NCBI GenBank assembly: GCA_007449985.2
Contig: VIIQ02000180.1
Coordinates: 151,501-215,500, forward strand
Length of the DNA: 64,000 bases
DNA from: Desmodesmus armatus
Taxonomy: Eukaryota > Chlorophyta > Chlorophyceae > Sphaeropleales > Scenedesmaceae
Reading direction: 5' to 3'
Numbering within the stretch: position 1 is the stretch's first letter; the number at the start of each line of letters is the position of its first letter. This document shows, in pieces, positions 7,206 to 61,200 of this stretch. A program made the translations under genes and the position numbers. The notes beneath the pieces were generated by a model. It made no database searches. It was not told the DNA's origin and saw nothing but the letters and a program-made list of their open reading frames with translations.

Positions 7206-7391
7206 GAGAGTGCTTTGAAGGTCGGATGCATAATTGGTGATTTATTCCATCTATAAACGTGGGTGATCAATCAGGGTTTAGCAGCCGGGCGGCATTTCTG
7301 AGGGTCGCATATGCGTGCCATTTTCACCTCAGCGTAGCTTGAACAACTTCAATTTTACACTGGTGCGGCTGCCCTGGGCAACGGGCCCATC

Positions 7392-8392
7392 ATGTGCCTG
7401 GGCATGCCGTAAAACTGCCTCGCATCAGCACGGCGCTGCAACATGTGCCAGGGGCTGTCCCAGCCCAGCCTCGCTGGTGTGTTTCGCCCCTATTATAGTC
7501 AGTAGTTATTCCTCTTGTGTCTGTGCCGCGGATCAGGAGGCAGCCTGTGCAGCACGGGCTGAGCTCAGCCATCGCGATGTGCTGACGTGGGTCTTTCACG
7601 TAGGCCGCGCGCTGGGGTTGTTGCGTCGTCCCTTGTTTTGTTGGTTTCTGTGTTTGTGTTGTGGCTGTTTCGGACCAGCGTTTGGCCAGCACAGTGGGCT
7701 GTCGGACCGGTGGGGCAGTAGCAGTTGACAGCAGTAGCTGGAGAGCTGGAGCTGGAGCTCGAGCAGCAGCTGGCGTGCAGCATCACGCACAGTGTTGATT
7801 ATCTTCACTGTGCCGTGGTTTTGTCGCGTTTACAGCAGCAGCAGCAGCAGCTTTGGCTGGATCAGCAGCAGTCCGCTGAGTCAGCAGGCAGGTGCTGGTG
7901 TGCAGCAGCAGTGGCAGCAGAACACAGGCAAGGGCCATGCAGTGGCCTTGGGCCTGGTTGTAGGGGGCAGTGTTGCTGGCCTGTGAACGGTGCAGGTGCT
8001 TGGGCGCGCTGACTTGGGGCAGCCCGGTATACAAAGGTGTCGCTCTGACACCCCGGGCACCTGTCTTGGGGGTGTGTATCGCAGCACAGCTGGAGCCTTT
8101 CTTCCACATTGTGTTCGAAGTGGTTGCCCCGGGGGCATGGGGGTGTGTGTTCGGCTTGGTACTGGTGGAAGCCCTCTTGTCTGTGTGGCTGGCTTTGTGG
8201 GGTTGAAGCCTTGCCTGTGGTCCCCTCCTTTCAGACAGTCTCCTCTGCAGACATCTATGGTGGCGGGTTCTCTCCTTTCCGTGCTGTCTGTTCCCGTCCT
8301 TGTAGGTCCTGCAAAGGACTTTGGTTCCCTTCCGATGCTGGGTGTCGTTGCAGCGTAGCTGCGTGTGTCGCCCTGTAACCCCTTCTTCTTCA
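7392..8392 (+). mobile_element. TTC-tailed retroelement, ~1.0-kb copy with perfect 12-bp TSD
   Basis: AACGGGCCCATC occurs immediately before (7380-7391) and immediately after (8393-8404) this block, a perfect target-site duplication. The element ends in GTAACCCC followed by (TTC)n, as expected for target-primed reverse transcription. A second ~955-bp copy is at 29709-30663. No reverse transcriptase or other recognisable domain is present, and the open frames are short, Cys-rich and unlikely to be real. It is a non-autonomous non-LTR or SINE-like element. Confidence 0.85.
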
Positions 8393-8443
8393 AACGGGCC
8401 CATCGAGAAGGTTGTTGTGGATTTGGTCACACCTCCAAGACAG

Positions 8444-8487
8444 ACTGCCAGTTTGGACCCGTGTGACACCTTCAGTCATTCATTTTA
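8444..8487 (+). mobile_element. 44-bp micro-insertion, (TTCA)-tailed, 13-bp TSD
   Basis: ACCTCCAAGACAG flanks it perfectly on both sides (8431-8443 and 8488-8500). The insert ends in ACCCGTGTGACACCTTC plus a degenerate CATT tail. This is the same 3' terminal core as the copies at 9517 and 28960-29013. Confidence 0.8.
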
Positions 8488-8494
8488 ACCTCCA

Positions 8495-8820
8495 AGACAG
8501 GTGCCCGGCGTGTTGGGGTGACACCGTTTGCATATCGGGCAGCCCCAAGTCAGCGCACCCAACTTGGCAAGCACCTGCACGGTTCAAAGGCAAGCAGCAC
8601 TGCCCCCTACGATCAGGCCCAAGGCCACTGTATGGCCCTTGCCTGTGTTCTGCTGTCGCTGCTGCTGCACACAAGCACCCTGCCTGCTGACCCAGCGAAC
8701 TGCTGCTGATCCAGCCGAAGCTGCTGCTGCTGCCGTCCAAAACGCCACTCACCACAGAACAGTGAAGATGTGCAACACTGCACGTGATGCTGCGCGCCAG
8801 CTGCTGCTCCAGTTGCTCCA
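8495..8820 (-). mobile_element. Diverged inverted copy of part of the 1-kb retroelement
   Basis: Read on the minus strand this matches 7735-8066, including the GGCCTTGGGCCTG... and GGATCAGCAGCAG... blocks, at clearly lower identity than the 29.7-kb copy. With 7392-8392 it forms a potential hairpin with a spacer of about 430 bases. Confidence 0.8.
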
Positions 8821-9516
8821 CACATTAAGTTGCGACTCTTGTGCGACTCACTCCAAACTTGTGTAACTGCTGACGAGACATGGTGGTGCTGTTGCAGTGT
8901 GTCTGTCGTTGTGTGCTTTGTTGGGCAAGAGGAGCTATAGCGGACTTCGAATTCGTGCGCAAGCAGCAGTGAAGCTGCCAGCAGTGTGTGCAGATGTGCA
9001 GTGTGCGGTACAAGATCTTGCGCCATACACTGTGTGTCTCCAGTTTTGGGGCAGTGAAGGTAAGTGGACATACTTGCTGCAGGAAGCCCTCTGCGCGGCT
9101 TGCAGGCTGGTCAATGTGTGTGTGCAGAGTCGCATGTATATCCTTGGTGCTGCTTGCTCCCTGCAGGTATGTGATCTTTACAAAATCTGCTACAACAACA
9201 GCAGCAACAAGGAACACATCATGCAGCATCAGATGCAACCTGTGAGGCAAATGGCAAAGCTGCCTGTGCGTACCGTATGGTAAAATTTTCCAAATCAAAA
9301 CACTACACCACCCATGCAAGGTGTGCGTGCAGGCAACCACACAACCGCTGTGCATTGCGCCAATGTATTGTGCCACACAGCAACCTCGGGTGTCAGTCTT
9401 GCCTGCAAACTGGCCCTCAAACACAGCCCCCTGGCAGAGGCTCAGCAATCACCGGCAAGCTGGCACCATGCCAAGTGACTTGGGGGACGGGCATGCTTGA
9501 TTGAGGTGGATGACAC

Positions 9517-9561
9517 CCCACGTAGTTGCGTGAGAAACCCGTGTAACACCTTCATTCATTC
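9517..9561 (+). mobile_element. 45-bp micro-insertion, (TTCA)-tailed, 12-bp TSD
   Basis: GGTGGATGACAC is repeated exactly at 9505-9516 and 9562-9573. The insert consists only of the family's 3' core (ACGTAGTTGCGTGAGAAACC and CGTGTAACACC) and its TTCATTCATTC tail. It is an extremely 5'-truncated copy. Confidence 0.88.
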
Positions 9562-9649
9562 GGTGGATGACACATGACCAACTAGGAGTAACGATCGCAC
9601 AGCTGCATAGCGGCAGCAGCTGAGGTGTTCTGCATCTATGTGCAGCTGG

Positions 9650-10870
9650 TTTAGGGCTGCCAACCCGGTATCCCAGGCTGGCATATCTCACTGGTGAGGC
9701 TTTGCGTCGGGCAGTTGGTTTTGCCTGATTGCTGTGTATATGGCCAGCCGGTGGGACTCCGCCCCCCTGGTAAAAAATCTGGGCAATGGCAGGCAAACCC
9801 TGTGCGACTATCACATCCACATGCCATCATGGCCCAATCAAAGCTGCCAGCCATGCCGGCAGCCTTTCATACTGGCCTGCTACGGCCTGATGGGCTAGGC
9901 TGAGCAACTGTGACAATATTGATGCAACAACGTTGGAGGGCGTTTTGTGGTGCCCAACTTGGTTTCTTGAGAGTCTCAAAAACAACGCAGCCACACCTCT
10001 GCTCTGAGAGGTTTTGTGGAAAACCAAAAACAAACCTGACATGTACAAACACCAGACCACATTCCAAGCGTCCATGCAAGTCCCACATGACTCAGAAACA
10101 CAGTGGCGTTCATTTGCTGTTGCCTATCCTGGCATGCCGTGCGCAGCAGTGCGTTCACACATCGGCAACAACACCAGTCTGGCTTTTGCAAGCCCATTGA
10201 GAAATTACAAGGAGCTCCTCTGTTGACAACAGAACCACCCACTGGGTGCATGGCATGCACATCACACCCCACACAGTATAAAACGGAACCACTAGCCACA
10301 CATCACGCACCACACACTACAGTCGAACCCTGTCTCCGTCACCAGTGCCAACTCTACCAGCCCTCTTCTCCCTCTATCCGGAATGAGGACAATTTTACAT
10401 AAGAGACCAAGTTAGCAGTGGCCGACAACCCTCAAGGCTCATGGTGAGGCCCTTCATGAGGTCATGACTGCCACAGCACTTCACGCCAATGCTGTCAATG
10501 CTGTCAAGGAACTCCTGAACTCAATCAGAAGCTTTCATGCAGGTGTGCAACATCATGATGCAAGTGATCACTTGCAGATGACTGCAGGTATAGCTAACCC
10601 AGGTAGGGGAGCAGCATTGCTCGCTCATTGGTGTGACTCACGGTACAGTGTGCCAACATACAACAGTGTACTGCAGATATCATGGCAAGCTAGGTCACAG
10701 CGTGGTAAGGTCTGGTATGCCACGAGGGCTTGTTCAGGCCCTGCGGATGCTGAAGCACCTACAACAAGGGCCGTCATGACCGCCCACCATGCCTCACCCC
10801 CGTCATTATCATATGTATCACAGCCCAAGATGTCTGCTTTTGTGAACTCGCTGCGCATATAGCGGTCAGC
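9650..10870 (-). pseudogene. Old dispersed repeat with coding-like remnants, copy 1
   Basis: Read on the minus strand, several blocks are colinear with 23440-24140. One block holds the ATGACGGCCCTTGTT word and the CATACCAGACCT word. Another reads MWDLHGRLECGL here against MWELHGRLGPGL there. Part of it (QGGG...-GH near 9740-9790) also resembles 59660-59740. The frames are broken and I recognise no transposase or polymerase motif. I see no other gene in 8821-11408; 10873-11200 holds only TGTACACACA-type simple sequence. Confidence 0.55.
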
Positions 10871-11408
10871 AAATGCAATGTGATGCAGCTTTGAAACAGG
10901 ATGCAGTGCAAGCTTCAGTTAAATGGTGCAACCACTGGCATGGTGACAACTCGATGGCACGTTCCAACGTTGCTGGCCCACACGCGTACATGTGCCAAGT
11001 GTGCAGGTGTACACACAGTGTGAAGGTGTACACGCACACATGTGCATGTACATGTATGCATTGTGCCCCACTGGGGCATTGTGCCGCACTGGCATGTGCC
11101 TTGTGGGCTCTTGAACATGTGAATGAAGAAACCCAAGACAAAGAAAAACGAAAATGAAGAAACCAAAGAGCTTGCTTGGACCAACCCTCTAGAGCATAGG
11201 TGCTCTGCTGTGGCATGTTGTTTTACTCCCCTAGGAGCTGGCTGTGACAAAATCCAGAACCACCCTTGGGTGAACACGTATGTCAGCTGGCAACTGCGCT
11301 TGAAGCGCCACTAGCAATGCCACACATTGTGGACGCTGGGCCCCGGCACAACACCACCCATGTGCACACCATCTCAGGAACCAGCACACTGAAGCCATGG
11401 CAGGGGCT

Positions 11409-14011
11409 TCAGATGCGCGACCAAGTGCTGGCTGATTCCTGTGGGGGTGTAGGTTTGTGCGGATCACAAACGGCTGACAGGTCAGGCTTGGTGTTCAGGT
11501 CGAACTCAAAAGAGTTGCCTGGCTTGCCTGAAAGCCACGCCCCCACTCGGCTGAAGCCGCTGCCTTTCGGCATGATCTGGTAATCAGTCATTGAGAAAGC
11601 AAGCATTTCCCCCAATGCCTCCTGTGTTGTGCGCTCCATAGTTTTTTTGTCGCAGGCCTTTGGATTGAAAACAAAGCAGTCAGTGTGCCATGCAGCTGAC
11701 GTAGTGTCTGTTAGCAACTTCTCTGTCGAAAACCTTTTTGCTGCTGCCACGCGCAGAGGCAGAGCATCTGCTATGAGATACCACACCACCCTTTGCCCTG
11801 GTGCGGCGAATGCCTGCTCTAACAGCCGCGCACACTCAAAGTATGGCATGACCTGCTGCAGTTGTTCTTCTCCCAGGGTCTCGTTGTGTTGGTCTCGAAA
11901 CACTTGATCCCCCAGGCGAACTTTGATGCCTATCTTCAACGCCTTTGCGTCTTGCAGTATGGACCATGTTTGATGGTAGAGGGCTTGCACTGGCGTGCTT
12001 GGAGCGCAGAGGTAGAACCAGCTGCACATGAACGCTGTTTCGGGTGTCAAGCCATACTCACTTGACCATTGCTGCTTGTGGTGTGGGTTGTTGAAGACAG
12101 CAGATGTGTCACCCCTGTTGCTGAGTGACATTACGTATGGCACCTCAGGGTTCTGATAGGGAAAGAGTGACAGGTTGGTGCTGCGCAACCAAGCTGGGGT
12201 CTTGGGAGTGTTCATCATTGACTGGCGGAAGTTGGTGCTGCTGTTGAATTGTCCCGTGGGCGGCAGCTGATCAGGTTCTGCAAGCAAGCATCACCAACCA
12301 CATGGATTGTCAACATACCCAACTGGCGCACTAGTACTGATATTAGTATGGTCTAGCAAAAGCTCCAAGCTACCGCATCAGACGAGTGGGAACGTTATCA
12401 ATCTGCTCAAGATGCATGCACACAGTGTGCGGCATTGAAGCATCCTGTTGGTCAGTGTCCCTCAGTCTGCATGCAGTTGCTTTGAAGCTGCTGCATGCTG
12501 ACATGGTGCCTCGCTGGTCTGACAACACACCATGTATGCACTCCCCGACATGAGGCTGAAACCCAAAACATGGTAAGTGTTTGCTGCACCTAGCTGGTTG
12601 GCAGGGCACACTTGCAACTTGCGGTGACAGGCCATCTGAACCAACCTGAATAATCATCGTGGGCCACAAAGTTTCGTGAGAGGACCTCGCTGGGCAGCAC
12701 TTGAGGGTGTGTCCAGTTCACAAAGGGTTGTGCACATGCGGCACTCAATGGGGGCAGGTAACTATGGGTCACCATGGTGAAGGCACGCCTTGACAGCAGC
12801 GCAAGGTAGAACTGGGTGACCAGACCTGTGAGGAGCAAGGAGGAGCCGAATGAGAACCATCAGCGCTGAATAGTTGCTTTGCTGGTGCCATACACTGTTG
12901 CTGGAGCCGACGGTCGGTTGGCCTGCTACTGTGACTGAGGTGGGAAGTGCGCCTCTTTTACTGCTGCTGTTGCGCACTCTATCGGGCAGCTGCCAACCCT
13001 TCTGCCACCTCTAGTTAGGCTCGGGAACCGCAAGTCAAGGTGGCAAGAGCCGCTGTTGATTACTGTGTAATTATGTGCCAGTGTTGACAATGCGCGCCAC
13101 CCAACACAGAAGACCAACACCAGATGTCAGGCTAGAGCGTGCTGCGTCTTGTTCAACAGCTCTCTGCATACTGCATGTCAATCGCCTAACTGGCCGGGCT
13201 CTGTACCCTGTACATGCATGTGCTGTCACCTAGTGGCCATGACCCATGACTCAGCAGGAAAACAAACAGAGATCTGAGTTGCTGGAGGCATGTGTGTTGA
13301 ATAGTACCCAAAACCACGTCTGACCCCCTCTCCCCCCCCTTTTGCAAGCACCACACCACATATCATAGTGGTCATATACTCCACGTGTTGCAAGATGTGG
13401 CTCCGAGCATGGCATGCAGATACTGTAAGGTGCAAAGAGCCCTTCAAGAGATCGCAACCTCTTGCTGGCCAATCGGCCACCTGAAATGCGTGACAAAATG
13501 GATCCGTGTGCACAAGTGTGCCCACCGCTACAGCCTGTAGGTTCAGTCGATGCATGGGTTGAGGCTGAGCTTGTAGCTCACCGGTCATGCGATCAGCCAG
13601 TCCATTGTAGCCTGCTACAGACACCAAGTAGCGAGGTGCTGCCCTGCCTGATACGATGTCAGCATGCAGCTTGGCGTACTCCAGACCCCATTTGTCGTAG
13701 TTGCAGCGCTGCGTCTGAGGAAAGTGCGTCTTGAGCACCTCTGCTGCTGCAGGGTTGATGGCTGGTACGGCTCTGGGAGTAGATCCAGTGTTGGTGCCTC
13801 TCACTGCATGTGCTGTCTGCCCAACTTCCGATGTTCTCCTGTTTTTCTGGCTCCTCAGAACAGGCTTGTTCGTTTGTAATGCTGGCTTATTGCTGAGAAG
13901 AACCAAGAGTATGCCCAGCCCGCCAAGCAGCAGCAGCACTACTAGGCGGGGGTTTCTGAATGCAGCGGTCTGTCCTTTGATCGTGAACGAGAAAATGTTT
14001 CGTTCATTCAT
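11409..14011 (-). CDS. Type II membrane glycosyltransferase, fucosyltransferase-like (GT-B)
   Basis: Three exons, 13582-14011, 12646-12825 and 11409-12277, join in phase to give 492 residues. The start is the first Met (MNERNIF) ahead of a single membrane anchor at about residues 22-41 (LVVLLLLGGLGILLVLLS). This gives the cytosol-stem-lumen layout of Golgi transferases. Conserved-looking blocks are YNGLADRMTG then LVTQFYLALLSRRAF, FVNWTHPQ, KIGIKVRLGD (the HxRxGD-like donor-site block), WYLIADALPLRVAAAK and SMTDYQIMPKGSGFSRVGAW. This order is that of the fucosyltransferase superfamily (GT37/GT23-like). The HxRxGD histidine is Lys here, which is common in divergent members. The donor GTTGGT of exon 2 is weak, yet the phase agrees. 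Substrate and linkage cannot be read from the sequence. Confidence 0.78.
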
Positions 14012-15147: not shown

Positions 15148-15278
15148 TTCTCTCCTTTCCATGTTGTCCGTCCCGTCCTTGTGGGTCCTGCAAAGGTTCA
15201 TGCTTTCCCTATACGGCGCTGGGTTTCGTAGCAGCGTAGCTGCGTGTGCAACTCGCGTAACCTCATCTTCTTCTTTTC
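15148..15278 (+). mobile_element. ~130-bp TTC-tailed retroelement fragment
   Basis: It matches the last ~125 bases of the 1-kb element (TTCTCTCCTTTCC, CCTGCAAAGG, GCAGCGTAGCTGCGTGTG, then a TAACCTCATCTTCTTCTT tail) with moderate divergence. GCCATGGC flanks both sides (15140-15147 and 15279-15286), a plausible 8-bp target-site duplication within a CCATGG-rich context. Confidence 0.72.
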
Positions 15279-15452
15279 GCCATGGCCATGGCCAAATGCG
15301 GCGGGATGAACAACAGCAGCGACACAGCAGGGCTTACACAACCCACGGCAGGGGGATCAAGGAGCAGCTGCGTGATGGAGTGGTCTCAGCTTGTTTGCTT
15401 GTTTTACAGAATGAAGCGCGATTAACAGGAAGGGCAAGGGCAGTAGCTGTAC

Positions 15453-23132: not shown

Positions 23133-23139
23133 GGGCGTG

Positions 23140-23254
23140 GTGGCGGGTTCTCTCCTTTCCGTGCTGTCTGTTCCCGTCCTTGTGGGTCCTGCAAAGGACT
23201 TTGCTGGGTGTCGTTGCAGCGTAGCTGCGTGTGTGGCCCCTTCTTCTTCTTCTT
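23140..23254 (+). mobile_element. 115-bp TTC-tailed retroelement at the GT23-like stop codon, 14-bp TSD
   Basis: CTGGTGAGGGCGTG is duplicated perfectly at 23126-23139 and 23255-23268, and the first copy contains the gene's TGA stop. The insert is the 3' end of the 1-kb family, including CTCTCCTTTCCGTGCTG and GTTGCAGCGTAGCTGCGTG plus a (TTC)n tail. The coding frame is intact, so the insertion only changed the 3' untranslated region. Confidence 0.9.
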
Positions 23255-23439
23255 CTGGTGAGGGCGTGCGTGTGTATGACACCATGGCAACCCCCCTGGG
23301 TGCAACCTGCTATTGTCAGTAATGCACTGCACTTCTGTAGCACTGCCGGGCATTCTTCTCCAAAGGTGCCCATCGCTTGCATTTGCTGACCTGCTGTATA
23401 TCTAGCAGACTCCCACTGTTCGTCCGTATGAGTAAACAT

Positions 23440-24409: not shown

Positions 24410-24499
24410 TTTGAAGAAGAAGGGGTTACACGGGCGGCTCAAGCAGCTACGTTGCAACGACACCCAGCATCGGAAGGGAACCAGGGATCCTTTGCAGGA
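24410..24499 (-). mobile_element. 90-bp TTC-tailed retroelement, 12-bp TSD
   Basis: On the plus strand it begins with the complement of the tail (GAAGAAGAAGGGGTTACACG) and ends at GCAGGA. CCCTGGGCTGTT is repeated exactly at 24398-24409 and 24500-24511. In 24512-25639 I see a possible short exon (24948-25010, reading YDRYIVDAAANSAAVEIAAD) and a CAG run at 25247-25290, but no identifiable gene. Confidence 0.88.
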
Positions 24500-25909: not shown

Positions 25910-26735
25910 GGTCAGTCAGTCAGTGTTCGTTACAAAGAGGCCTCAAGGACCCAGCCAACCCGATGCAAGCCCCGGGACCCAATCCATGTCCCGCCCTTGT
26001 AACTCAAGGCGCCACCAATCCTACTCAAGACAGCCCAACCACCTGTGGCACACAAGCTGTGTTAGCATGAAACACGCACAAGGCATAAAGCGAACGGATG
26101 CGCGGCCAAGAACGCACATGCACATGCTGACGCAGACAAGCAGGCAGTGAAAGAGCTGACATGGCAATGCAAGCATGACTAGCTGACCCAACCCAAGCTG
26201 GCACATGCATCACTGCCCCCGCCCCGTCGGCGGTCAGTCAGTCAGTCAGTGTTCGTTACAAAGAGGCACTCACTCACTCACTCATTGTTCGTTACATTGA
26301 GATCCCCGAAAGACCCAGCCCACACCATGTAAGCTCAGGGACCCAAACCATGAGGCAGTCAGTCAGTGTTCGTTACAAAGAGGCCTCAAGGACCCAGCCA
26401 ACCCGATGCAAGCCCCGGGACCCAATCCATGTCCCGCCCTTGTAACTCAAGGCGCCACCAATCCTACTCAAGACAGCCCAACCACCGAGGCGGTCAGTCA
26501 GTCAGTGTTCGTTACAAAGAGGCCTCAAGGACCCAGCCAACCCGATGCAAGCCCCGGGACCCAATCCATGTCCCCAGTCCATGTCACCGAGGCACTCACT
26601 CACTCATTGTTCGTTACATTGAGATCCCCGAAAGACCCAGCCCACACCATGTAAGCTCAGGGACCCAAACCATGTCCCTCCAATGCAACTTAAGGCGCCA
26701 CCTCCTTCTCAAGAGCAGCGAACCACCTGCAACAC
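25910..26735. repeat. P/Q satellite array (GTTCGTTACA units)
   Basis: Two related units of about 140 bases alternate. P contains GTTCGTTACAAAGAGGCC and CGATGCAAGCCCCGGGACCC. Q contains GTTCGTTACATTGAGATCCC and TGTAAGCTCAGGGACCC. Copies start near 25912 (P), 26270 (Q), 26354 (P), 26492 (P) and 26593 (Q), separated by (CAGT)n or (ACTC)n. The sequence 3' of the first P and the last Q is also related (GGCATAAAGCG...GCGCGGCCA). Confidence 0.85.
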
Positions 26736-27795
26736 ACAAGGTTAGGCAACATGCAAACATGTACAAGGCATAAAGCGTCTGAATGCGCGGCCATTGAAGC
26801 ACATGGGGCCTGCAGAGCAGCCAAGCATGCAGTGACACGCTGTCCCAACAAGCGAACAACCATGGCAAGCAAGGCACCTGCTCCCGGTGCTGCTGCTGGG
26901 GGAATGAATGAAGGTGTTACACGGGTTTCTCAAGCAACTACGTTGCAACTGAACCCAGCCACGGATGGACACAACCAGCACGGAAGGGGGCCGTTCGGAC
27001 AAACCCCACCATCAAAAGCTTGTCACGCACACTCAGTGTGCTTCCAGATTGCGAACACAGAGATATAATACACTGGAAGGACTGAATGGCGCCAACGGCA
27101 CTGCTTCTCGCACCTGCAGGGTTGCGACAAGAAAGGGCGGACGGAACAGAAAACAGCGAACACACAGCTGCGAGCCACAAAACACTCCCACATGTTGCAG
27201 TGGGCGCACGTGGGGCAACTTCACCGACACCACCAGTCGCTGCACTGTTCACAAGCCAGCAGGATAGAAGTCACACAGCAGCCAGCAACTCACATGTCAC
27301 CACATGCAGAAGCTCAATGCCTAACTACCCGCAAACCGTTGCCTCCTGACAGCACCACATGCCATGCAATGAAAGGCTGCTGTGTGAGCGCAAGCCCCTG
27401 CGCCCGCTTAGGGATGATTGCAGAAACCGCAAAGTCAGCCAAGACGCGCCAAAACTCCCCAACAGCAGCACGCCCTGCAATGCGCTCTACCGTCAGCAGA
27501 GGCAACGCAGGACCTGCTGGGGGAATGAATGAAGGGGGAACAGAAAAGTTCAAAACACGAGCGTGGGAACCAGCACGTGGCACAGACGCCCGCACTGGCC
27601 GAACCACTGCAACTGTGCACTGACCAGGCAGGCTGCTCCACACTGCTGCTGTTGATGCTGCCAAGCCTTCCTCCAGCTCCAGCACCAGTTCCAGCGCTGC
27701 AAAAACCGAGGCAGACTGCTAAACCCTGACTGACAACACAGGCACATATAGGGCATTTTCGGCCCTGCGCACATCCGACCCTTGAAAGCACTCTC

Positions 27796-27869
27796 GGCCG
27801 CGTAGTTCAATTGGATAGAACGCTGGTCTACGGAACCAGAGGCTGGAGGTTCGAGCCCTCCCGTGGTCA
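27796..27869 (+). tRNA. tRNA-Arg (anticodon ACG), copy 2
   Basis: All 74 bases match the first copy. The 5' flank CATCCGACCCTTGAAAGCAC with a TATAGGG box ~55 bases upstream, and the 3' flank CATTGCGTATTGCTGCTG, are shared with copy 3. It sits in block Z of the palindrome's left arm. It is probably functional, since internal promoter boxes are intact. Confidence 0.95.
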
Positions 27870-28544: not shown

Positions 28545-29280
28545 AATACGCAATGACCACGGGAGGGCTCGAACCTCCAGCCTCTGGTTCCGTAGACCAG
28601 CGTTCTATCCAATTGAACTACGCGGCCGAGAGTGCTTTCAAGGGTCGGATGCGCGCATGGCCGAAAATGCCCTCTATGGGCGTGTGTTGTCAGTCAGGGT
28701 TTAGCACGTGCGCCCACTGCAACATGTGGGAGTGTTTTGTGGCTCGCAGCTGTGTGTTCGCTGTTTTCTGTTCCGTCCGCCCTTTCTTGTCGCAACCCTG
28801 CAGGTGCGAGAAGCAGTGCCGTTGGCGCCATTCAGTCCTTCCAGTGTATTATATCTCTGTGTTCGCAATCTGGAAGCACACTGAGTGTGCGTGACAAGCT
28901 TTTGATGGTGGGGTTTGTCCGAACGGCCCCCTTCCGTGCTGGTTGTGTCCATCCGTGGCTGGGTTCAGTTGCAACGTAGTTGCTTGAGAAACCCGTGTAA
29001 CACCTTCATTCATTCAGTCGCGCCAAAATCTCAAAGTGCGTTTTTGTGGCGTAGACTGCATATCAGCGTCATGAATGGCGTCCATAAATCATCATCATCA
29101 TTTATATCTTCTTTGTTCAGGCAACATAGGTCGAAGGCGGCGACGGGGAGCAACTCATCGGAACAACTTGAGTTCCTGGCTGTTTCTCTCACTGGATTCT
29201 TCTTGAAACCCTTCTTCGTTTCACCACTCAGCGCAAAGGTGGGAAGATACTGTTTCGGATATAAACCTGGAGCTGCATCT
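28545..29280. repeat. Right arm of the mirrored palindrome (Z'-Y'-X', contiguous)
   Basis: Reverse complement of the left-arm blocks: Z' 28545-28708 with a tRNA, Y' 28710-29013, and X' 29020-29190, with weaker similarity to about 29280. Y' ends in the (TTCA)-tailed retroelement core (GTTGCAACGTAGTTGC and CGTGTAACACCTTCATTCATTC-type end). The loop 27881-28544 holds long G runs (27964, 28137, 28207, 28424), a C run (28449) and no gene. Confidence 0.88.
28554..28627 (-). tRNA. tRNA-Arg (anticodon ACG), copy 3
   Basis: The 74-base sequence is the same as the other two copies, in inverted orientation relative to copy 2. It shares about 85 bases of 5' flank with copies 1 and 2 (GCTAAACCCTGA..., a TATAGA/GG box, CATCCGACC) and a CTG-rich 3' flank. 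Confidence 0.95.
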
Positions 29281-29396: not shown

Positions 29397-29626
29397 CAGC
29401 CCTCTTGTCTGTGTGGCTGGCTTTGTGGGTTGAAGCCTTGCCTGTGGTCCCCTCCTTTCAGACAGTCTCCTCTGCAGACGCCTGTGATGGCGGGTACTCT
29501 CCTTTCTGTCCGTTCCCGTCATTGTAGGTCCTGCAAAGGACTTTGGTTCCCTCCCGATGCTGGGTGGTGTTGCAGCGTAGCTGCGTGTGTCGTCCTGTAA
29601 CCCCTTGTTCTTCTTCTTCAGTCAAA
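29397..29626 (+). mobile_element. ~230-bp 5'-truncated TTC-tailed retroelement
   Basis: It matches 8167-8392 (CCCTCTTGTCTGTGTGGCTGG near the start, GTAACCCCTTGTTCTTCTTC-type end). The left end abuts the C-rich tract, so a target-site duplication cannot be judged. Confidence 0.85.
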
Positions 29627-29708: not shown

Positions 29709-30663
29709 AGCGGCGCTGCAACATGCGCCAGGGGCTGTCCCAGCCCAGCCTCGCTGGTGTGTTTCGCCCCTATTATAGTCAGTAGTTATTCCTCTTGTGT
29801 CTGTGCCGCGGATCAGGAGGCAGCCTGTGCAGCACGGGCTGAGCTCAGCCATCGCGATGTGCTGACGTGGGCCTTTCACGTTGGCCTCTCGCTGGGGTTG
29901 TTGTGTGGTCCCTTGTTTTGTTGGTTTCTGTGTTTGTGTTGTGGCTGTTTCGGACCGGCGTTTGGCCAGCACAGTGGGCTGTCGGCACGGTGGGGCAGTA
30001 GCAGTTGACAGCAGTAGCTGGAGAGCTGGAGCTGGAGCAGCAGCTGGCGTGCAGCATCACGTACAGTGTTGGTTATCTTCACTGTGCCGTGGTTTGGTCG
30101 CGTTTACAGCAGCAGCAGCAGCTTTGGCTGGATCAGCAGCAGTCCGCTGAGTCAGCAGGCAGGTGCTGGTGTGCAGCAGCAGTGGCAGCAGAACGCAGGC
30201 AAGGGCCGTGCAGTGGCCTTGGGCCTGGTTGTAGGGGGCAGTGTTGCTGGCCTGTGAACGGTGCAGGTGCTTGGGCGCGCTGACTTGGGGCAGCCCGGTA
30301 TACAAAGGTGTCGCTCTGACACCCCGGGCACCTGTCTTGGGGGTGTGTATCGCAGCACAGCTGGAGCCTTTCTTCCACATTGTGTTCGAAGTGGTCGCCC
30401 CGGGGCATGGGGGTGTGTGTTCGGCTTGGTACTGGTGGAAGCCCTCTTGTCTGTGTGGCTGGCTTTGTGGGGTTGAAGCCTTGCCTGTGGTCCCCTCCTT
30501 TCAGACAGTCTCCTCTGCAGACATCTATGGTGGCGGGTTCTCTCCTTTCCGTGCTGTCTGTTCCCGTCCTTGTGGGTCCTGCAAAGGACTTTGGTTCCCT
30601 TCCGATGCTGGGTGTCGTTGCAGCGTAGCTGCGTGTGTCGCCCTGTAACCCCTTCTTCTTCTT
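29709..30663 (+). mobile_element. TTC-tailed retroelement, ~955-bp copy
   Basis: Near-identical to 7431-8392, ending in GTAACCCC(TTC)n. CACCAGGGCAAG (29697-29708) and CACCAGGGTAAG (30664-30675) flank it, a 12-bp target-site duplication with one mismatch. It is about 40 bases shorter at the 5' end than the copy at 7392. No coding domain was recognised. Confidence 0.87.
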
Positions 30664-42731: not shown

Positions 42732-42840
42732 GTGAACTTCTCCACAATGGCAGCACAGCTGTCCTTGATAATGTGTTGTGTGGCATTGTAGTCAGTTGAG
42801 ATGAGTTGAGTTGAGTTGTAAGTTGTTGCTACCGGAAAGT

Positions 42841-45568: not shown

Positions 45569-45592
45569 ACAGACAACAAGCACAAGCAGCAG

Positions 45593-49974: not shown

Positions 49975-52900
49975 ACCTGTGGCAGACCTCTGGTGGCGCC
50001 TGGTGGCATGCGCCAGCTGCAGCACCATCAATGCAATCAACCATGCCAAGCCGTGCAGTGCAATCCAGCGCAGTGCAGTGCAGAGCAGTGCGGCTGCAAA
50101 AGAGTCGCGCCCTTTAGGCAGCCAGCACTCAAGCCTTATGCAGCATGCATGTGTAGGGTGTGCATTGTGACAGACAGCCGCCTGCTTGTTTGCCATCAGG
50201 CAGGGCAGTGTTGCTACCTGTGTGCTCACTTGGCATGCCGTTTTGTGCCCTTATCATACATCTGCAAGAGCAGCGTGCGCACGGGCCACAGAGAACTCAG
50301 GGGTTTGAGAGGGGGCATGCTGTCGGGGTTGATTGCCTCAGGTTGTGATGTCTGGTGCTGGGGACGCGTCCCCAGCACCCACAGGATGCCCAGCGGGTGC
50401 TGGGTGGAGAAATTTGATGGTTTCAACAGGTCAGAGGGCCTTCAATGTTGGTATGCAGCTTGCACTCTGCACACGAACATCTGCGCATTTAGGCAAAAGC
50501 AGGCACCTGTGAGCCACGTCGACTGCTGCCGGCGGTCAACTTCTGCTGCTGCTGCCAGCAGGCAGAAGCACATGGTGGTGTGGTTTGCATATAAGGCTCA
50601 GTGTTTGAGTGAACCTTTTCCAATGTTGCGGGGTACAGTGCATGCAATGTTGTCAGGGCTGACATGCATCCAGATGGGATGGGGTGGGAGCTGCCTAAGC
50701 CAAATTTGCATGGTAATGTGCCTTCAAGGCTTAATGGACGGACCACGGTTTGATTGTGATGGAGCTTGAGAGTCCACTTGCCTTATGGCGCTAGGGGGCA
50801 GCAGTGCTGGGCCCAGCACATCACGTCACACCTTGGAGTCTGAGGCTCGGACTAGGACCACCAACGGTTTAGTAAACCTCAGCAATGCATTTTTGAGCGA
50901 GAAAAACTTTGTTCAGTGCAGCATCGTGGCCAAAATCGTTGCCTGCTCTGCAACCTTCTTCTATGCAGATTGCCCTCTAGATCTCCTCGCAAACTTCCGC
51001 AACTGCACACCACGAACCCCTTGTCCACACTTAGCGGTCGAAGCACGTAGAGGACAGGTCCAGCACCAAGATTAGCATTAGCGCGCCATAGACAAGGGCC
51101 TGTGATCCGCCCCTGTTGAGCATGCTATCCGCTTTTCCACTGCAGATTCCTGCTGCTGCCCTGTTCCCCCATCGCTTCGGGCACGATGATGGCGACCTAT
51201 TGGTTTCGATAATCGTTGAGATGCACCAAGTTTATGCTGTGTTCCGGTTCTGCCCCGCACAGGATGGCAGGTGCTGATCTGGATGTCATGGAGTCCGTGT
51301 TGCTGGTGGACCTGCCGGACCCCTGCCTGCCGCGGGTGCTGCAGGGCTGTGCAGCAGACCAACGCAGCCTGTTCAATGCCGCCAGGGCCCACAGCAGGCT
51401 GCACCAGGAAGCTGCACGGGTGCTGCACAGCATCACAGCACGCGTGCGCACCATCACAGCACCCGTACGGTGTCCCAACAGCAGCAGATGGACAGCATCA
51501 TGCTGTACCTTGACAAGCACGGTCAGCATGTGAACAGCCTTGATATAAGGGAGAAGAGGATGACATGATCGGACCGCAAGGGTCGCTTCGCCAGCTGCCC
51601 CCACAGCTGCAGCTCAGCAGCCTGCAGCTTGACAAACTCAGCTTGCAGTTGCAGCCGGGCAATGGCTCCCAGGGTGTGCTGGGGGCTGCTGCTGCAGTAG
51701 CAGCCCTCAAGCAGCTGCGGCTGACAGACTGCAAAGTGCTTGACAGTGGGCCAGCTGAGGCGCTGGCTGCGGCACTGTCGCAGCTGCCTGCTGGGCTGGA
51801 GCACCTCTGCATCAGCTGTATGGGGGTTGGTGGGGGCGCGGTGAAGCTTCCCGCTGACGTGATGCACCAGCTGCAGCACCTCCAGCACCTTACCTACCTT
51901 GAGCTGGGTGAGGCTAGCAGCTGGTTCGTTAGAGTCCTGACCTGCAGCCGCTGCAGGGCTTGACTGGGCTAGAATGCCTCAAGCTTGAGCGCATCGGGGT
52001 TGTCGTCACCTCCAGCATGCTGTCAGGCATGCAGCGCCTGACACGCTTGGAGCTGAAAGCAGAGATACAGCCAAATGCCCTGGCTGGTTTGACCCAGCTG
52101 CACGACTTGTGTTTCAGCTTATGTGTCGTACGTGGGGGTGCAGACGGGGTGGCACAGCTGCTGTCTGACCTGCAGCCTATGCAGCTGACAAACTTGAGCC
52201 TGGATGGGGGCTTGCGCACGGTTGAGCGCAGCTTCCCTCCAGCATCAGCCTATGCAGCCCTGACAGCCAGCACCGAGCTGCAGCACCTTGACATCACCCA
52301 CTGCGCACTGCCAGAGGGTGTGTGGCAGCATGTGTTCCCGTCCGGCAGGCAGCTGCCAAACCTGCAGTCAGTCGATTTCACAGGTGCCATGCAGCCAACA
52401 GGCAGTTATGCCCAGGCTCCTGAAGGCAGCCGCCTTGTCAGCTGCTGCCCTGCCCTGCGGTCGTTGAAGATGGGGTTGCTGCAGTGCAGTGCAGAGTCGC
52501 TGGCCCCACTGCAGGGGCTGAGCGGGCTGCAGACACTGCACTTCGGCTGGGATGAAGCCACAGCAGAGGTTGTGCAGGCGGTGTGTCAGCTGACAGGGCT
52601 GAGGGAGCTGGAGGTGTGGTGCTCTGCGCGCTTGAAGGAGGAGGGGTCATTGCTGCAGCTGACGCAGCTGCAGCAGCTGACTGCGCTGCATGACGGGCCC
52701 CTGTCTGAAGCAAACTACGAGATCAACTTTTCATGTGAGGCGCACATATGCATACTATGCAAGTAGTAGTTCTGTACAGGCTTGGCTTGTGTCGTATGGG
52801 TTGTATCCAATCTGTTTGTGATTCATATGTTGCTATTACTTCCAGACAAATACAGCAGCCTCAGGCTGGTTATGTGCCTTGCCCACAAGTGTCCTCGTGT

Positions 52901-54925: not shown

Positions 54926-55288
54926 CGCCAGTGAGCATCTGTGCGCAGCAGCCAAAATCTGTCTCTCTGAGCATCACTGCACCAGCTTGGCCAGATGAGT
55001 TGCAGATGTGCACACCGAGCTTGATGGCATAAGCACTAGAACCCTTCACAGGGACCTTGAACAACCTACCAGCATACACAAACAGACTGACAACACCGCA
55101 TGAGCATTGCTCCCAGCTGAGCAATGCGCGGGAATCTGAATGCATCCGAAACTACTGTTGGAGCGTGTGCTGCCGCACTCTTGAGAGGCAGGACAGCAAC
55201 AGCAGCACAGAAACTTTCTGTGGCACAGACAGCCCTGTCCTCTTCAGGGGGCTGTCATAGGGTCGTCGATTGAATAACAAATGCCAAG
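53235..55288. other. 3' flank of gene D; no gene recognised
   Basis: UTR donor GCGGCAG|GTGGGT (intron from 53262) and acceptor CCCTGCAG (end 53548) are conserved. The region after 53640 parallels the 3' flank of A. 54926-55288 is unassigned and will include the 3' UTR of the antiporter gene on the other strand. Confidence 0.5.
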
Positions 55289-58200
55289 TCATGCAGAGGT
55301 CCGGGCCGGGGCCTGTCCAGGGTGATGCCCCTGCACCCTTGATGATCGCACAGCCCTCACTCCTCCCTCACACATCATCCTCATCAGCTCCACTGCAGGG
55401 GCAATGCTCTGACCCAACAGCTTCCTGGACGACAGCCAGGAGGGGCAGCCGGCAACACCCCCACCCTGCTGCTGCTGCTGTGTATGGCTGTTGTCTTCCC
55501 TGCCGGCTGGTGCTGCCACTGCTGCTGCTGCTGCTGCTGCTGTGTCAGTGTCTGCGGCCCTGCTGTTAGAGGAGGTGGTGTTTGTGTGTGTTGTGTGTCG
55601 TGTGACCAGCAGTAGGGCGCCTGTGGGTCCTGCTGAGGCAGCCTGGGCTGTGCTGGTGTACCTGGGGGCGGGGTGATAGATAAGAGAGGGGGGGAGGGGG
55701 AGTGCAGGGCAACAGGGGGCCAGCATGAGAGGGTCAAAGATGGGGTAAGAGGGGAGACAGGGGTGGTGGTGGTGCCAGGGATTATGGGGAGTGTCAGTGG
55801 TGTGGAATCATACCACCTGAGGCAGCCGGTGTTGTGCAAGCGCACATGTGTGGGGTGGGGACGTGGCGACCGATATGAGGTCACACACGGCCCTTTCCTC
55901 AACTAACGCTAAATGCCTGGCATTTTAGCGTCATCTCTCTCTCTCTGTGGCAAATCCGGGTGGTGCAACAAGAAGGCCATACCTCCTCTTCACCCCCAAT
56001 CCCACAAAGCCCCCCCCCCCCCCCCCCCCCCGGGAACCCCACCTGTCCTCCGGGCTATCAAAGAGCTCAGGGCCCCAGGTTGGCACTGCCCTGGCAGGGC
56101 CCCCTCCTCAAAGCCCCTCCTCCTGTCTTCCTTACAATGGCAGCCACCCCTGCCTCAACCCCTTCCCGCCCATCTCCCCACCCCACCCCCTCACCCCTCC
56201 CTGCCTGGCGCCACACACCCCACACCCCACACACACACCTGTCCTCCAGGGTGTCAAAGAGCTCAGGGCCCCAGGCCAGTAGTGCTGGCGCACGCCACAG
56301 CCGCAGCACTGAACCAGCAGGGCAGGACCCACCCACACTGATACTGCCAGCAGCAACAGCAGCAGCAGCAGGACCGGCAGCAGCAGCACTAGCAGCAGAG
56401 CGTGACTTGCCCTGAACAGGCCCCGCCTGCTGCTACCAGCTGCTGCTGCTGGAGTGGTGGCGCTGTTGCTGCTGGTGCTGGTGCTGCTGCTGCTGCTGCT
56501 GCTGGTGCTGTGTGTGCGCAAGCTGCCATCGAGCAGAAGGATGGAGGAGGTCTGGGTGAAGGACTGGCCTGCAGGTGGGGGCAGGGGGGGGGGGTAGTAA
56601 GGAGGGAGGAACGTGTGAGCAAGGTGAAAGTGGTGGAAGGGAGGGAGTGACAGGCAGCAAGATGTGGGGAGGAATGGGGACAAACCAACTGGAATAGCGC
56701 TATAGTATAAGCCCAGTATCAGCATCAACGGCACAGGGGACATAACTTATTGGTTGAACCAGCAATGCTTGTTGCATACAGCCAGCCACGACACAGGTGT
56801 TAGGACTTACCAGGTGCGAGTGTCACCAAGCTTGCCCCCCTGATACCGTCCCTCAACTGCAGGCCAGCAGCAGCAGCACGCTGACGCAGCAGCTGCTGCA
56901 CACCAGGCTCCAACACACCACCCCTCACTCCCTGATGCGCTGAAGCCTCCACCTCCCCCACACCACCACCCAACCCTGCTACTGCTGCTGCTGCTGCTGC
57001 TGCTGCTGTGGGTGCATTGCTGCTGGTGTCACCGCCATCGAACAGCAGCAGTGACTCATCTGTGTCACCGCTGCTGCCGTGTGGTGTGTCAAAGGCTGCG
57101 GAGAGGAGGTCAGCAAGTGCCTGGCTGTCTGCTGCTGCTGCTGGGGTGCTGTTGCTGCTGAGGTCTAGGAGGGCTGCAGGAGTCGCTGCAGCTTTGATGA
57201 GCTCTGCTGGGGCGGCAGCTGGGAGGTGTAGGCCAGCACAGACTGCAGGAAAACACAGCAGATGGGGACAGGTGGGGTGTGTTACCATAGATGATACATG
57301 TGTTTAGAGACTATGCCAGTCATAGGCAAGCAACAATTGAACCAGGCAGTTGCATAGTCCCCCAAACCCTCACTCCTTTGTCCTTCGCCCCCTCCCAAAA
57401 AAGCCTGGGCGCCCACACGTTTGCATCACCCTCCATCCCACCCACCGTCACTGCCTCCTGCAGGTGTTGTGCCAGCCGGTTTGAGTGTCCCGCAGGCCAT
57501 CCTGTCCAGCAGCATGACTCCAGCCTGGCGGTGCATGTCCAGCAGCAGCTGAGCAAACGCAGCAGGACTCAGCCCGCTGTCTGTGACACCACCCGGTGAC
57601 ATCAGCAGACCAGGGGGGATGTCTGCGCTGCTGCGACCTGCAGGGGCACATGATGGGGGAGTATGTTACATTGACATTTCACCAAGCAGCAATGGCATTG
57701 TCCACCAGGGTCGAGCCAGGTGAACCTGGGGGAGAGCGAAGGTGCTTGAAACGATTCCGGGAAGTTCGGCGGTGGTGACGGGGGGGGGGGGGGAGGCAGG
57801 GCTTTATTCGCTATCAGTACGACCAGCTGGTGACACCAGCAGGCCAGCAGGGATGTTTGGGTGCTGAAGGACACACGATGCGGTGACATAGAGGTTCTTG
57901 TTTGTGGGATGCCGGGCAAGTGCTGGTGAGGTTGGTGGTGGTCCATACAATCGGAACACTCTCTACGCAGTACAGCTGCAACACACAGTGTGACTGACTG
58001 TGTGCTGACAGCATCATGCTCAGTGATCAGCAGGCCACTGGCTAAGTGCATGTGAGCTCAACGACAATGAGCCAACAACAGCAACAGCAACAGCAACGCC
58101 AATGCCATCACTCGCACCTGCTGCAGCTGTTGCAGCAACAGCTGCTGTGCCATGAAGGTCGTGGGTCGACCTGCTGCTGCTGCTGCTGCCGCTGTTGGCG

Positions 58201-61200
58201 GCCTGTATGGCAGGTCCCGCGCGCTGCCTGATTGTTGACAGAAGGCGCATGGGCAGGTGCAGCAGCATGGGACCACGACCCATGGCATTGCCCTGTCGAC
58301 AGCAGCACACGCACACAGCGGTGCAGGACATGGAAATTGCAGCGTCAAATGCTGCACAGCGCTCATGCGCATACTTCCCAAACCGCAGGCGAATGCAGCA
58401 ACTGAGGCAGAACATAACAAGCTGTCATCTTTATTGTTGGCAAATATATCAAGCAGCGTATGATGACGATATGACTCCGTCAAGCTGTTCGCACCTGGCC
58501 CCAGGCGCCGATCAGTCCGTTGCCGGGCAGGTCGTGCCCGATAGTGCTGGGAATGATGCCTACGCTGCCGCCAATGCCCACAAAGCGGCTCGCCTGCTGC
58601 CCCGCCCGGTCGCTCCACCTCGACCCGCACCAAACCGAACAGCACGATGACACGCCTGGAGGGCTGGCGCGCTGCAGAGCAGACGTGCAGACACAATTCT
58701 CTCAGGGGCAAATCCTGAGGGAAAGGTGCGTGCAGCCGGGCTGACACAACCAGGCTAAACCACGAGTCAAAAAACTGCGTGTTGCATGGCCAAAGCTGGC
58801 AATAGTGGGGCTCCTGTCACGTAACTACCACAACACTCTTTATGACGTCGGGAAGTCAGCTGCATCTTAGCGACATTCACCAATGATGCAAATGTACCCT
58901 TTTGCCAACACGCCCTCACCCGGCGCGGTATGATGCACTGTCCGGGGCGATACGACTTGAGCTCCCCGTACGCGCGCAGCCACAGCAGCAGGTCCTCGGG
59001 AGCAGCGGCGAGGCAGGGCAGGCGCCGTAGCACGTCCATGATGCCGGGGTTCTCCCAGTTTGGACCCCGCGATTCCAGCCTGCAATGAAGCAAACATGCA
59101 GCAGCGTATGACCAGGTGCGCGATACATTGCGGCAGTAACGAAGCCGCGAAATTGCGGTCCTGGCCTCGATGAATCGTGTACATATCAAGACGAGATTGT
59201 AAGCGACAGATGCTCAGGGCACACAGCCACGGCAACAAAAGTTGCAATCATCAGCACAAGGCAACAGATACGAACCAGTCCAGACCAACAAGGCTCGCGT
59301 CATACGCACATGCAAGTCGATTCTATGCTGATGATGGGCACTCTCGTGTTCACGCACCTGTGCAGTCGCCTCTCCAGCAGCTCCTGTAGCTCCTCACCAG
59401 TCAACTCATCAACAGCACCAACCTGGGCAGGGAGGTAAGGACAGGATAGCGGGGCAGGAGAGGCAGATGAGCAGGGAACGCACACATGGCATTCCGCATG
59501 CGTTTCGCGGGAGGTTTACAAAAGATTAGACCACTGGTCCGAGCCAAGCGTGGCAGTGGCTTGCCCCTACCTACAGGGGCAATAGTATTCACGGCTTTCA
59601 GTGGCCAAAGGCGTGGCAAAACCGTGCCATGCAGGCTGCCCAACCAATCAATGCACCAGGAAAGGACCATGTGTTGCGTGTGTGGCCAGCCGTGGGTGGG
59701 GCCGCCCCCCTGAAAAAATAAACCGATGTGGTGCTCGTCAGGCCGCGGCTGCCCCACCCCTTTAGTGCACCATGAATGATTCACCTGCACCATGCGCTCC
59801 ACAAAGCCAGCTGCCTGCGCGCCACGGCCAGCTTCACCCTATGCGTCTGCAGACACACCACACACGTGGTCGGCCTCATACAGCAGCATGTACACAGCAG
59901 AGTAGACATGTACCCGTGTACATGTTTCATGCTTGCATGGACAGCGCTGGCCGTGCACAGCCCTACATGCATCTGCATGTGAGACGTGTCAGCAGATGCT
60001 GAGTGTGCAAGTATACCCCCCCTAGCAGGGTGTGCAGCTACCAGTGAGCGGCGTGCAACTGCAAGAGTGTGTCCCATCAAGCTAACCCTACCTGCAGCGC
60101 TGCAAACTCGTCTGGTGCCTCAAGCTGTCTGTCCATGATGAAACGCCACACGGCAGCAGCCTGGTCACGAAGCTCCTCCTGGACAGGGAGGGGGGCAGTG
60201 CATGATCAAGGGGGTTGGGGGAGCGGGTTGGGAGGCGGGGAAGGATGCACAGCAGCAGCCTGATCATGAAGCTCCTCCTGACAAGGCGTGGGGGGGGGGG
60301 AGGTTTTTTTTGGGGGGGGGGGGGATGAGCGTGTGGGAGAGGGCGGCAGAGCCACATAAAAAAACAGGGTGTTTGGGGGAGTGGTGCGAGCGTAGGAGGA
60401 GGGGGGGGTTGCTGAGCACACTTCCACCGGCAGCCTGTTCAGTCTGACATGCGTCTCGCCCCTGTTACATCACCACACACATGCATGCATTACCCCCTTT
60501 GCATTGGCCATGGCGCATGCCGCACGGACACATGTAGCAGTAATTGAAGCCGTTACACGGGTGACGCAAGCAACTACGTTGCAACTGAATGCAGCTACGG
60601 AGGGGGGCAACCGGCACGGAAGGGGGCCGTCCGGACAATCCACACCCTCAAAAGCTGTACACACACCTGCAGCAGTGCTGATGCTGGTGTCCTCGAGTGC
60701 CTCATGAGTTTGGCGACTGGGCTGACAGTCAGGGCCAGCCACAACTCAAGACCAACCTCCAGCGCAGTCACAGCAGCCTGAAACACACAGAAGAGGAGGG
60801 GGGGGGGAGGGGAGGGTGAGACATGCACAGCTCCAGCCTGTGTGTGTCACTGCATGCACAGTGTAAGCTAGCGCATTGCAAGCTGCATGTCATCATGACA
60901 ACATGGTACTGATTATGATATCAGTTGCTGCCTTCAATACAACAACACCCAGACATCCAAGTTTTCTGTGTTAGCAGAGTACCCTTTCCCATGCCCCCTA
61001 AGGGTAACTGGGTCCACGTGCGCAAAGGCAACATCCTCAAAATGCATGACATGAGCACTCGCCATGGTAGCATGGCTATAGTTGCAGGGGTCGACAGGCA
61101 ACCAGTACACTGTCAAAACAGCATGAATGTGCAAGGTGGTCCCCCCCCCCCCCCCCCCCCCCCCCCGCGCGCCTCTCACCTTTCCCAGGTGTTGCCTGAG

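Follow-up and report, generated by a model that had tools for sequence, protein, structure and literature searches.

One-way arrays of a non-autonomous element and L1-type LINEs in the green alga Desmodesmus armatus, with junctions ordered towards the 5' side

A 64,000-nt stretch of the Desmodesmus armatus genome (contig VIIQ02000180.1, positions 151,501 to 215,500; 56.4% guanine plus cytosine), referred to here as the window, contains short insertions of two kinds: a non-autonomous element of about 1 kb, here named element A, and the truncated 3' ends of long interspersed nuclear elements (LINEs). Elsewhere in the assembly the same sequences are found in head-to-tail arrays in which one local target sequence is used repeatedly. 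A first-pass annotation had described nine stretches of the window as a single truncated LINE family with a shared 3' core, inserted by target-primed reverse transcription (TPRT). All nine stretches are present and related to one another (Table 1), with the correction that 24410-24499 and 60543-60668 lie on the minus strand, and the perfect flanking repeats reported at five of them were borne out exactly. Less perfect repeats were seen by eye at two others (15148-15278 and 29709-30663), and no convincing repeat was found by eye at 29397-29626, which has a poly-C flank, or at 60543-60668.

The assignment of all nine stretches to one family did not hold up, as element A is mixed with 3' stubs of a LINE, here named LINE-B. 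The stubs at 8444-8487 and 9517-9561 carry a (TTCA) tail and belong with LINE-B, not with the 1-kb element; the first lacks the GTTGCARCGTAGYTGC part of the supposedly common core and the second has only the end of it. Similarly, the proposed ladder of 5' truncation stands as far as strong truncation is concerned, whereas the 1-kb copies are the full or near-full length of a separate element. Further copies beyond the nine consist of LINE-B ends, a run of a third LINE (LINE-C) and an internal piece of A. A search of the window with the proteins of LINE-B (both open reading frames, ORF1 and ORF2) and parts of those of LINE-A and LINE-C left the statement that no enzyme is encoded there nearly intact, the exception being the last 66 codons of LINE-B ORF2.

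The assembly searched comprises 115.8 Mb in 831 contigs (C-numbers below denote contigs and L-numbers fetched loci), and because the genome searches score only the best candidates, the copy numbers given are lower bounds. The last 120 bases of 7392-8392 returned 47 matches (40 scored of 265 candidates), of which 40 show full identity across 119 bases or more. A search of the assembly for the exact A-type tail pattern gave 192 occurrences, and none for the pattern read backwards; the first 100 of these 192 places were listed and are the basis of all A-tail counts below. With the first 409 bases of A as query, 39 of 40 matches (40 scored of 98 candidates) start at query base 1-9. The query itself begins at that point, so the proof of a real 5' end lies in the flanks. 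Across 22 printed loci the sequence before A differs from locus to locus, except in the overlapping L007/L033 and the repeated blocks L022/L023 and L059, and in about two thirds of the 22 it ends, by eye, in a repeat of the sequence that follows the tail. The stretch 7396-8392 is a full-length, non-autonomous element A of about 1 kb, with a fixed 5' end and a (TTC)n tail. Among the A matches in fetched loci that reach the 3' end, 33 of 90 start within 12 bases of the 5' end and 57 start later (counted before split matches were joined).

No protein-coding capacity was evident in A beyond mechanical open reading frames, the longest being 73 amino acids on its own strand and 108 on the other. In a cmscan search with E allowed up to 5, no Rfam model that would mark a tRNA-, 5S- or 7SL-derived head came close to its gathering score, an unlisted pol III head being possible; its two matches, KCNQ1OT1_1 (E 0.0029) and mir-6132 (E 0.43), are far below their gathering scores. 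Resemblance between the body of A and the fetched parts of LINEs is confined to the 3' end and to stretches that are short or of low complexity.

The first-pass annotation had also predicted a LINE whose 3' untranslated region (UTR) ends in the same kind of core, and two such LINEs are present in the assembly. The 3' UTR of LINE-A ends in TTTGCAGCGTAGCTGCTTGATCACGGTGTAACAC(TTC)n. A protein search with the C-terminal part of LINE-A gave 91 matches (90 scored of 271 candidates), mostly to a second LINE about 60% identical. LINE-B was recovered in one copy with both frames open, in which ORF1 (an open frame of at least 587 codons just upstream of ORF2, without a Pfam match) is followed by a 1,439-amino-acid ORF2 and by a 3' UTR with the core and (TTCA)n. 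ORF2 matches Exo_endo_phos (E 2e-8) and RVT_1 (E 8e-26) above the Pfam cut-offs and zf-RVT (E 4e-4, 21.5 bits) under its cut-off of 27.5; its best match among solved structures is human L1 ORF2p (E 8e-33), with R2 at E 1e-16. From ORF1 and the APE-like endonuclease/reverse transcriptase (RT) layout of ORF2, LINE-B is predicted to be an L1-type LINE. Its 3' end gave 53 matches (40 scored of 426 candidates), 42 of them identical over all 116 bases, which indicates recent movement of LINE-B. The inner hairpin and tail of A are those of LINE-A and its outer stem is nearer to that of LINE-B; the enzyme of LINE-A or LINE-B presumably moves A.

Behind one RVT_1 match, LINE-C has a 3' UTR ending in (ACTG)n, after which a 5'-truncated LINE-A follows head-to-tail. 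In LINE-C of L069 (reverse strand, 1967-2405), TGTAAC is kept before the (ACTG)n tail and the hairpin pattern was not matched. The LINE-C 3' UTR is also a landing site, with a position opening on TCCCGGGGC used at two places on C1 and at one on C45. Eight of 150 scored RVT_1 places were tried and rejected as the partner of A; Ty3-type RVT_1 elements were ruled out, and in L063-L068 the core pattern was absent from the 4.4-4.5 kb downstream of the RT matches. A 311-base "(TTCA) family" taken for a second short element proved to be the end of the LINE-B 3' UTR, its apparent fixed start having come from the start of the query, and a TGA within the alignment of many LINE copies, considered as recoding, is the normal stop of LINE-B ORF2, where the query frame simply runs longer.

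The common 3' core of A, LINE-A and LINE-B can be folded as a two-stem RNA with compensatory changes. The R and Y of GTTGCARCGTAGYTGC are partners in the inner hairpin, which reads GCAGC-GTA-GCTGC in A and LINE-A and GCAAC-GTA-GTTGC in LINE-B, a difference of one compensated pair. The outer stem is CCGU/ACGG or CGGU/ACCG in LINE-A-type ends and, by eye, GGGUU/AACCC in LINE-B and GGGUG/CGCCC in A. For 21 LINE-A-type ends (18 distinct), 83.1% of the cells in the two stems are paired versus a shuffled mean of 77.8%, and the covariation score of the 18 distinct ends is 0.190 versus 0.103; one shuffle in 500 was as high in each case. Slid versions of the model pair 18.8-61.9% of cells, less than the real register. 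In the same two-stem test, the number of pairs with a double change (three) is not unusual (186 of 500 shuffles). Taken by itself over all 26 ends, the inner hairpin has 93.0% of its cells paired, a value equalled in 28 of 500 shuffles. Because related sequences inflate such shuffles, most weight is put on one outer pair, which is GC in 7 of the 18 distinct ends, CG in 6, AU in 1, GU in 1 and otherwise composed in 3. Element A itself folds better than its shuffles (z -3.33). The 3' RNA structure is presumably what the enzyme binds, and as judged from sequence, the similar 3' ends and the conserved stem-loop with compensatory changes fit a stringent-type pair of A with LINE-A or LINE-B. In one short A copy (L030; C45, about position 52100), the element starts with a second partial core (GTGTCGTTGCAGCGTAGCT, followed once more by GGGTGTCGTTGCAGCGTAGCTGC), which looks like a restart of the polymerase at the hairpin.

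For the analysis of insertion sites, 159 3'-complete copies of A and LINE-B were collected in 44 merged stretches, of which 152 have both flanks. A first count gave a flanking repeat of at least 9 bases in 107 of the 152 copies versus 13% of swapped pairs, a figure inflated by tail repeats; once tail-like matches were removed, such a repeat remained in 84 of 152 copies versus 115 of 5,789 flank-swapped pairs (2.0%). Further copies with genuine flanking duplications are therefore present beyond the window, and TPRT with strong 5' truncation, as first proposed, is well supported by target duplications above the swapped-flank level. Repeat lengths peak at 12-14. In raw counts on 50 truncated copies with repeats of 9-20 bases, tail-like ones excluded, duplication and element share one or more bases at the 5' junction in 35 and two or more in 21; 5' microhomologies are reported for R1 and R2 in the available text of PMC2718515. 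At the 43 sites that do not lie behind a tail, the only departure noted was a scarcity of G at +1, the first base of the duplication (1 of 43), to which the definition of the edge may have contributed.

The copies are clustered and point one way. Another A tail lies within 1.5 kb of 53 of the 100 listed tails; adjacent pairs at this distance are on the same strand in 37 cases and on opposite strands in none, with a random expectation of about 0.25 neighbours, and at up to 10 kb the counts are 49 and 1. For the 107 insertions with a repeat of at least 9 bases by the first rule (tail repeats included), the left flank matches A, LINE-A, LINE-B or LINE-C in 77, with the orientation the same in 77 of 77; the members of an array are not independent events in such orientation counts. 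Nine insertions lie inside a resident copy that matches on both sides, again all in the same orientation. Another 14 of the 107, three of them from the window, match none of the four elements on either side, the LINE-A and LINE-C sequences used being partial.

Within a merged stretch, 108 of 346 same-strand pairs share at least 8 bases after the tail, versus 77 of 11,005 different-contig pairs and none of 30 opposite-strand pairs. Groups sharing a target include 70 of the 152 copies, and several of these groups mix A with LINE-B (e.g., on C45, C39, C237, C542, C1, C224 and C794). On its left side the repeated word has almost the same edge throughout, whereas its right edge varies, as would be expected if the first nick is constant and the second cut variable. 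The target words differ among arrays, and the listed A tails are spread over 39 contigs. A special location at assembly ends was rejected because no clear excess near contig ends was found (for A-bearing contigs, 10 of 32 within 20 kb, versus 8.2 expected).

The order in which neighbouring copies arrived was read from triples of successive spacers. Where spacers 1 and 2 agree over more bases than spacers 2 and 3, the right element has supplied the additional bases from its 5' end, and the left element is taken to have entered later, on the 5' side of the right one; best agreement of spacers 1 and 3 is taken to mean that the middle element entered on the 3' side. Nineteen candidate arrays were printed and 12, picked after the output was viewed, were counted as having the target word mainly as a spacer; C224 is among them though its word also occurs twice in LINE-B bodies, occurrences that enter uninformative triples. 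The arrays left out were C97 (a partly duplicated block), C225, C45:58215 and C29 (word also within element bodies), and C174, C242 and C1:665200 (without triples). The 35 triples of the 12 arrays comprise 18 for 5'-side entry, 10 of them resting on at least two bases, one for 3'-side entry (by one base, on C39) and 16 that are uninformative. The clearest case is C45:51603, where the outer flank reads GGTCACAGG and then AACC, and nine units upstream (378 to 2330) read GGTCACAGGGT. The GT in these units is the 5' end of the A copy adjoining the outer flank and therefore cannot derive from that flank. Read in this way, the junctions of the 12 arrays place each new copy in the duplication 5' of its predecessor, and this order indicates that one nick was reused; reuse of the 5' duplication explains these arrays.

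Combined, these results make it quite probable that a group of L1-type LINEs and its non-autonomous parasite A insert by TPRT and build head-to-tail arrays through reuse of one nick. The LINE enzyme would recognise the two-stem 3' RNA, consisting of the inner hairpin GCARC-GUA-GYUGC and an outer stem, followed by UGUAAC and short tail repeats; it would nick one strand, prime on the nick and often stop early, and microhomology of 1-3 bases would often serve to close the 5' side, so that most duplications left behind measure 12-14 bp. On its 5' side, an insertion would keep the original left flank and the target intact, so that the nick site is usable again and the next A or LINE-B copy could enter the same site, in the same orientation, upstream of the resident copy. 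Repetition would then give head-to-tail arrays with a single local target sequence as the spacer between units. Possible causes of the reuse include a loosely specific endonuclease, tethering of the particle to resident copies, or bursts from one particle.

Several observations weigh against this explanation or parts of it. The window's own copies are mostly dispersed, and the 152 copies come mainly from loci picked by their match to A, so clusters are over-represented; the shared-target groups are partly block duplications (C180 and part of C97 and C174). In eight of the 18 triples that support 5'-side entry the difference is a single base, and seven of the 19 arrays were dropped after the output was viewed, the four of these with triples giving 7 for, 2 against and 8 uninformative. 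A strong nick motif was not found at the 43 sites that are not behind a tail. With regard to the RNA, covariation of the inner hairpin alone is weak, with its score reached by 20 of 500 shuffles, and sliding this hairpin by -3 gives a higher covariation (0.168 versus 0.093) but pairs 76.6% instead of 93.0% of cells. RNAalifold, run on the same alignment, found parts of both stems with no covariation bonus (term 0.01), and the 100-base LINE-B end folds no better than shuffles (z 0.16) and LINE-A only slightly better (z -1.22). With regard to the origin of A, its comparison with the 5' region of LINE-B gave short or low-complexity matches only, and no full-length LINE-A was recovered among the fetched loci, an origin of the 5' part of A from LINE-A being possible. 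A 68-base, 79% match to A positions 729-793 lies between LINE-A copies at L071 1890-1956, possibly a hint of where the A body came from.

Resident copies could instead draw in new ones through their tails, a (TTC)n or (TTCA)n tract attracting the particle, with the nick at the tail/target junction and entry on the 3' side. The left duplication does lie directly behind a resident tail in 34 of the 84 copies with a non-tail duplication (53 of 107 under the looser rule), and the published account of Zepp inserting into its own earlier copies may be read in terms of such entry. The same arrangement is expected equally under 5'-side entry, because the tail of the newer copy ends up before the duplication of the older one, and the triples run 18 to 1 for the 5' side in the counted arrays and 7 to 2 in those dropped. 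Tail-guided entry was dropped as the cause of the arrays on this growth-direction test and is considered unlikely.

Unequal crossing-over or segmental duplication of a few insertions is considered more doubtful still as the origin of the arrays; the first-pass annotation would have taken its own reading as refuted if segmental duplication with shared flanks explained all copies. Identical blocks do occur within them, at C174:104.6-105.8 kb (585 b apart), C97:343-347 kb (about 1,920 b) and C180:19-24 kb (about 1,640 b), and the last two C131 units start identically; these block duplications indicate that arrays also change by recombination. Duplication accounts for copies in such blocks and not for arrays whose members differ in family and truncation point. 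One group of seven copies on C45 contains both A and LINE-B, with different truncation points and a tail type of its own on every copy, which counts against duplication of a single unit, since this would repeat family, length and tail together. Finally, it is very improbable that a single LINE family exists whose 3' parts are the 1-kb copies, because the similar core and tail of A and the LINEs, and the existence of LINEs with that core, are outweighed by the common start of 39 of 40 A matches, the differing flanks with a duplication in about two thirds of the 22 loci, and a body that resembles the fetched LINE parts at little more than the 3' end, on which A as part of a longer LINE was rejected.

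The preferred explanation, with reuse of one nick and growth towards the 5' side, has its closest parallel in R1. As described by Stage and Eickbush (PMC2718515), R1 tandem arrays of the ancestral type in Drosophila 28S genes have copies separated by a 14-bp duplication, with entry inferred into the duplication 5' of residents; in D. willistoni, non-autonomous R2/R1 short internally deleted elements (SIDEs) are interspersed in R1 arrays (PMC3414825). To judge from these accounts, the Desmodesmus arrays agree with R1 in the similar length of the duplication, 5' microhomology, spacers made of the target duplication, inferred 5' entry, the interspersion of non-autonomous elements with LINE copies and presumed stringent-type 3' recognition. 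They differ in that R1 has one fixed 28S target whereas the spacer here differs from array to array, with no strong motif at the 43 sites, and in that the best solved relatives of LINE-B are L1.

The Zepp and ZeppL clusters of Coccomyxa and Chlamydomonas are described, in the sections of PMC3446292 and PMC8226300 available, as nested insertion into existing copies. By these descriptions the systems share green-algal L1-type LINEs and clusters of 5'-truncated copies that arise through insertion into residents. One cluster per chromosome, at the centromere, would be expected of a Zepp or ZeppL element; the listed A tails lie on 39 contigs that are not assigned to chromosomes. Unlike Zepp and L1-1_CR, which end in poly(A), the LINEs and A end in (TTC)n, (TTCA)n or (ACTG)n; the A tails lie on many contigs without a clear excess at contig ends, and a non-autonomous element takes part. 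SINEX-3_CR and L1-1_CR of Chlamydomonas are the only algal L1-clade pair of this sort listed in the consulted portion of PMC3747384, and they likewise combine a green-algal non-autonomous element with an L1-clade LINE through a shared 3' end of about 80 bases. SINEX-3_CR is listed there as tRNA-derived with an (A)n tail, whereas A is 1 kb long, ends in (TTC)n and has no tRNA-like head by Rfam. A literature search turned up no account of these elements as a set, nor of L1 arrays growing 5'-ward; the LINE families may be catalogued in Repbase.

Belief and doubt are in balance on the broader claim that L1-type LINEs without a fixed target return to one nick, so that the sequence of the first hit becomes the address for later copies and families share that address. 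If this is true, tandem growth of the R1 type would be a general outcome of TPRT, not limited to site-specific LINEs, and arrays growing 5'-ward would record the order of insertion and might lead to clusters of the Zepp kind. As the spacers keep traces of insertion order, the direction in which a LINE array grew could be read directly; a statement to this effect for Zepp-like clusters was not found in the portions of the Zepp and ZeppL literature available. The set of A, LINE-A and LINE-B also offers a natural test of 3'-end recognition in algal L1-type LINEs, with a short hairpin, compensatory changes and different tails.

Table 1. Copies of element A and of LINE-B and LINE-C in the window, with their target duplications (positions counted from the first base of the window)
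Positions	Strand	Feature
7380..7391	+	12-bp target duplication AACGGGCCCATC, left copy; A starts after a further 4 bases (7392-7395)
7396..8392	+	Full-length copy of element A (997 b) with fixed 5' end, common 3' core and (TTC)n tail
8350..8362	+	Inner hairpin of the 3' core, GCAGC-GTA-GCTGC
8393..8404	+	Right copy of 12-bp target duplication
8444..8487	+	44-bp stub, (TTCA)-tailed LINE-B type; 13-bp duplication 8431-8443/8488-8500
8488..8812	-	Internal piece of element A (positions 363-678, 84%), without 3' end
9517..9561	+	45-bp stub, LINE-B type; 12-bp duplication 9505-9516/9562-9573
15148..15278	+	Diverged A-type 3' end (80%); 8-bp repeat GCCATGGC by eye
23140..23254	+	Truncated A (84%); 14-bp duplication 23126-23139/23255-23268
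24410..24499	-	A-type end, truncated (91%), with some bases as in LINE-B; 12-bp duplication 24398-24409/24500-24511
25911..26835	-	Several LINE-C 3' ends in a row, truncated and all pointing the same way (six matches, overlapping or adjacent)
26910..27519	-	Last 611 b of LINE-B (99.7%), including last 66 ORF2 codons (27514-27317)
28705..29007	+	Last 303 b of LINE-B (100%)
29397..29626	+	Truncated A (92%)
29709..30663	+	A starting at its position 36 (97%); 12-bp duplication 29697-29708/30664-30675 with a single mismatch (CACCAGGGCAAG/CACCAGGGTAAG), by eye
60543..60668	-	Diverged LINE-B-type 3' end (84%)

Apart from these insertions, the window contains three tRNA-Arg(ACG) genes with equal Rfam scores (7132-7205, 27796-27869 and 28554-28627), two of which face each other and are flanked by the opposite-strand LINE-B ends at 26910-27519 (-) and 28705-29007 (+). 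An open reading frame of the window has an AAA domain; among 120 proteins listed of its 7,237 matches, those of the green algae Monoraphidium minutum (77% identity over 29% of the query) and Trebouxia (69%, 31%) rank first by identity, and Volvox, guessed as the source from the guanine-plus-cytosine content, was rejected. Between 43574 and 52763, three open reading frames have leucine-rich-repeat matches below the curated cut-offs and are perhaps a local cluster of leucine-rich-repeat genes.

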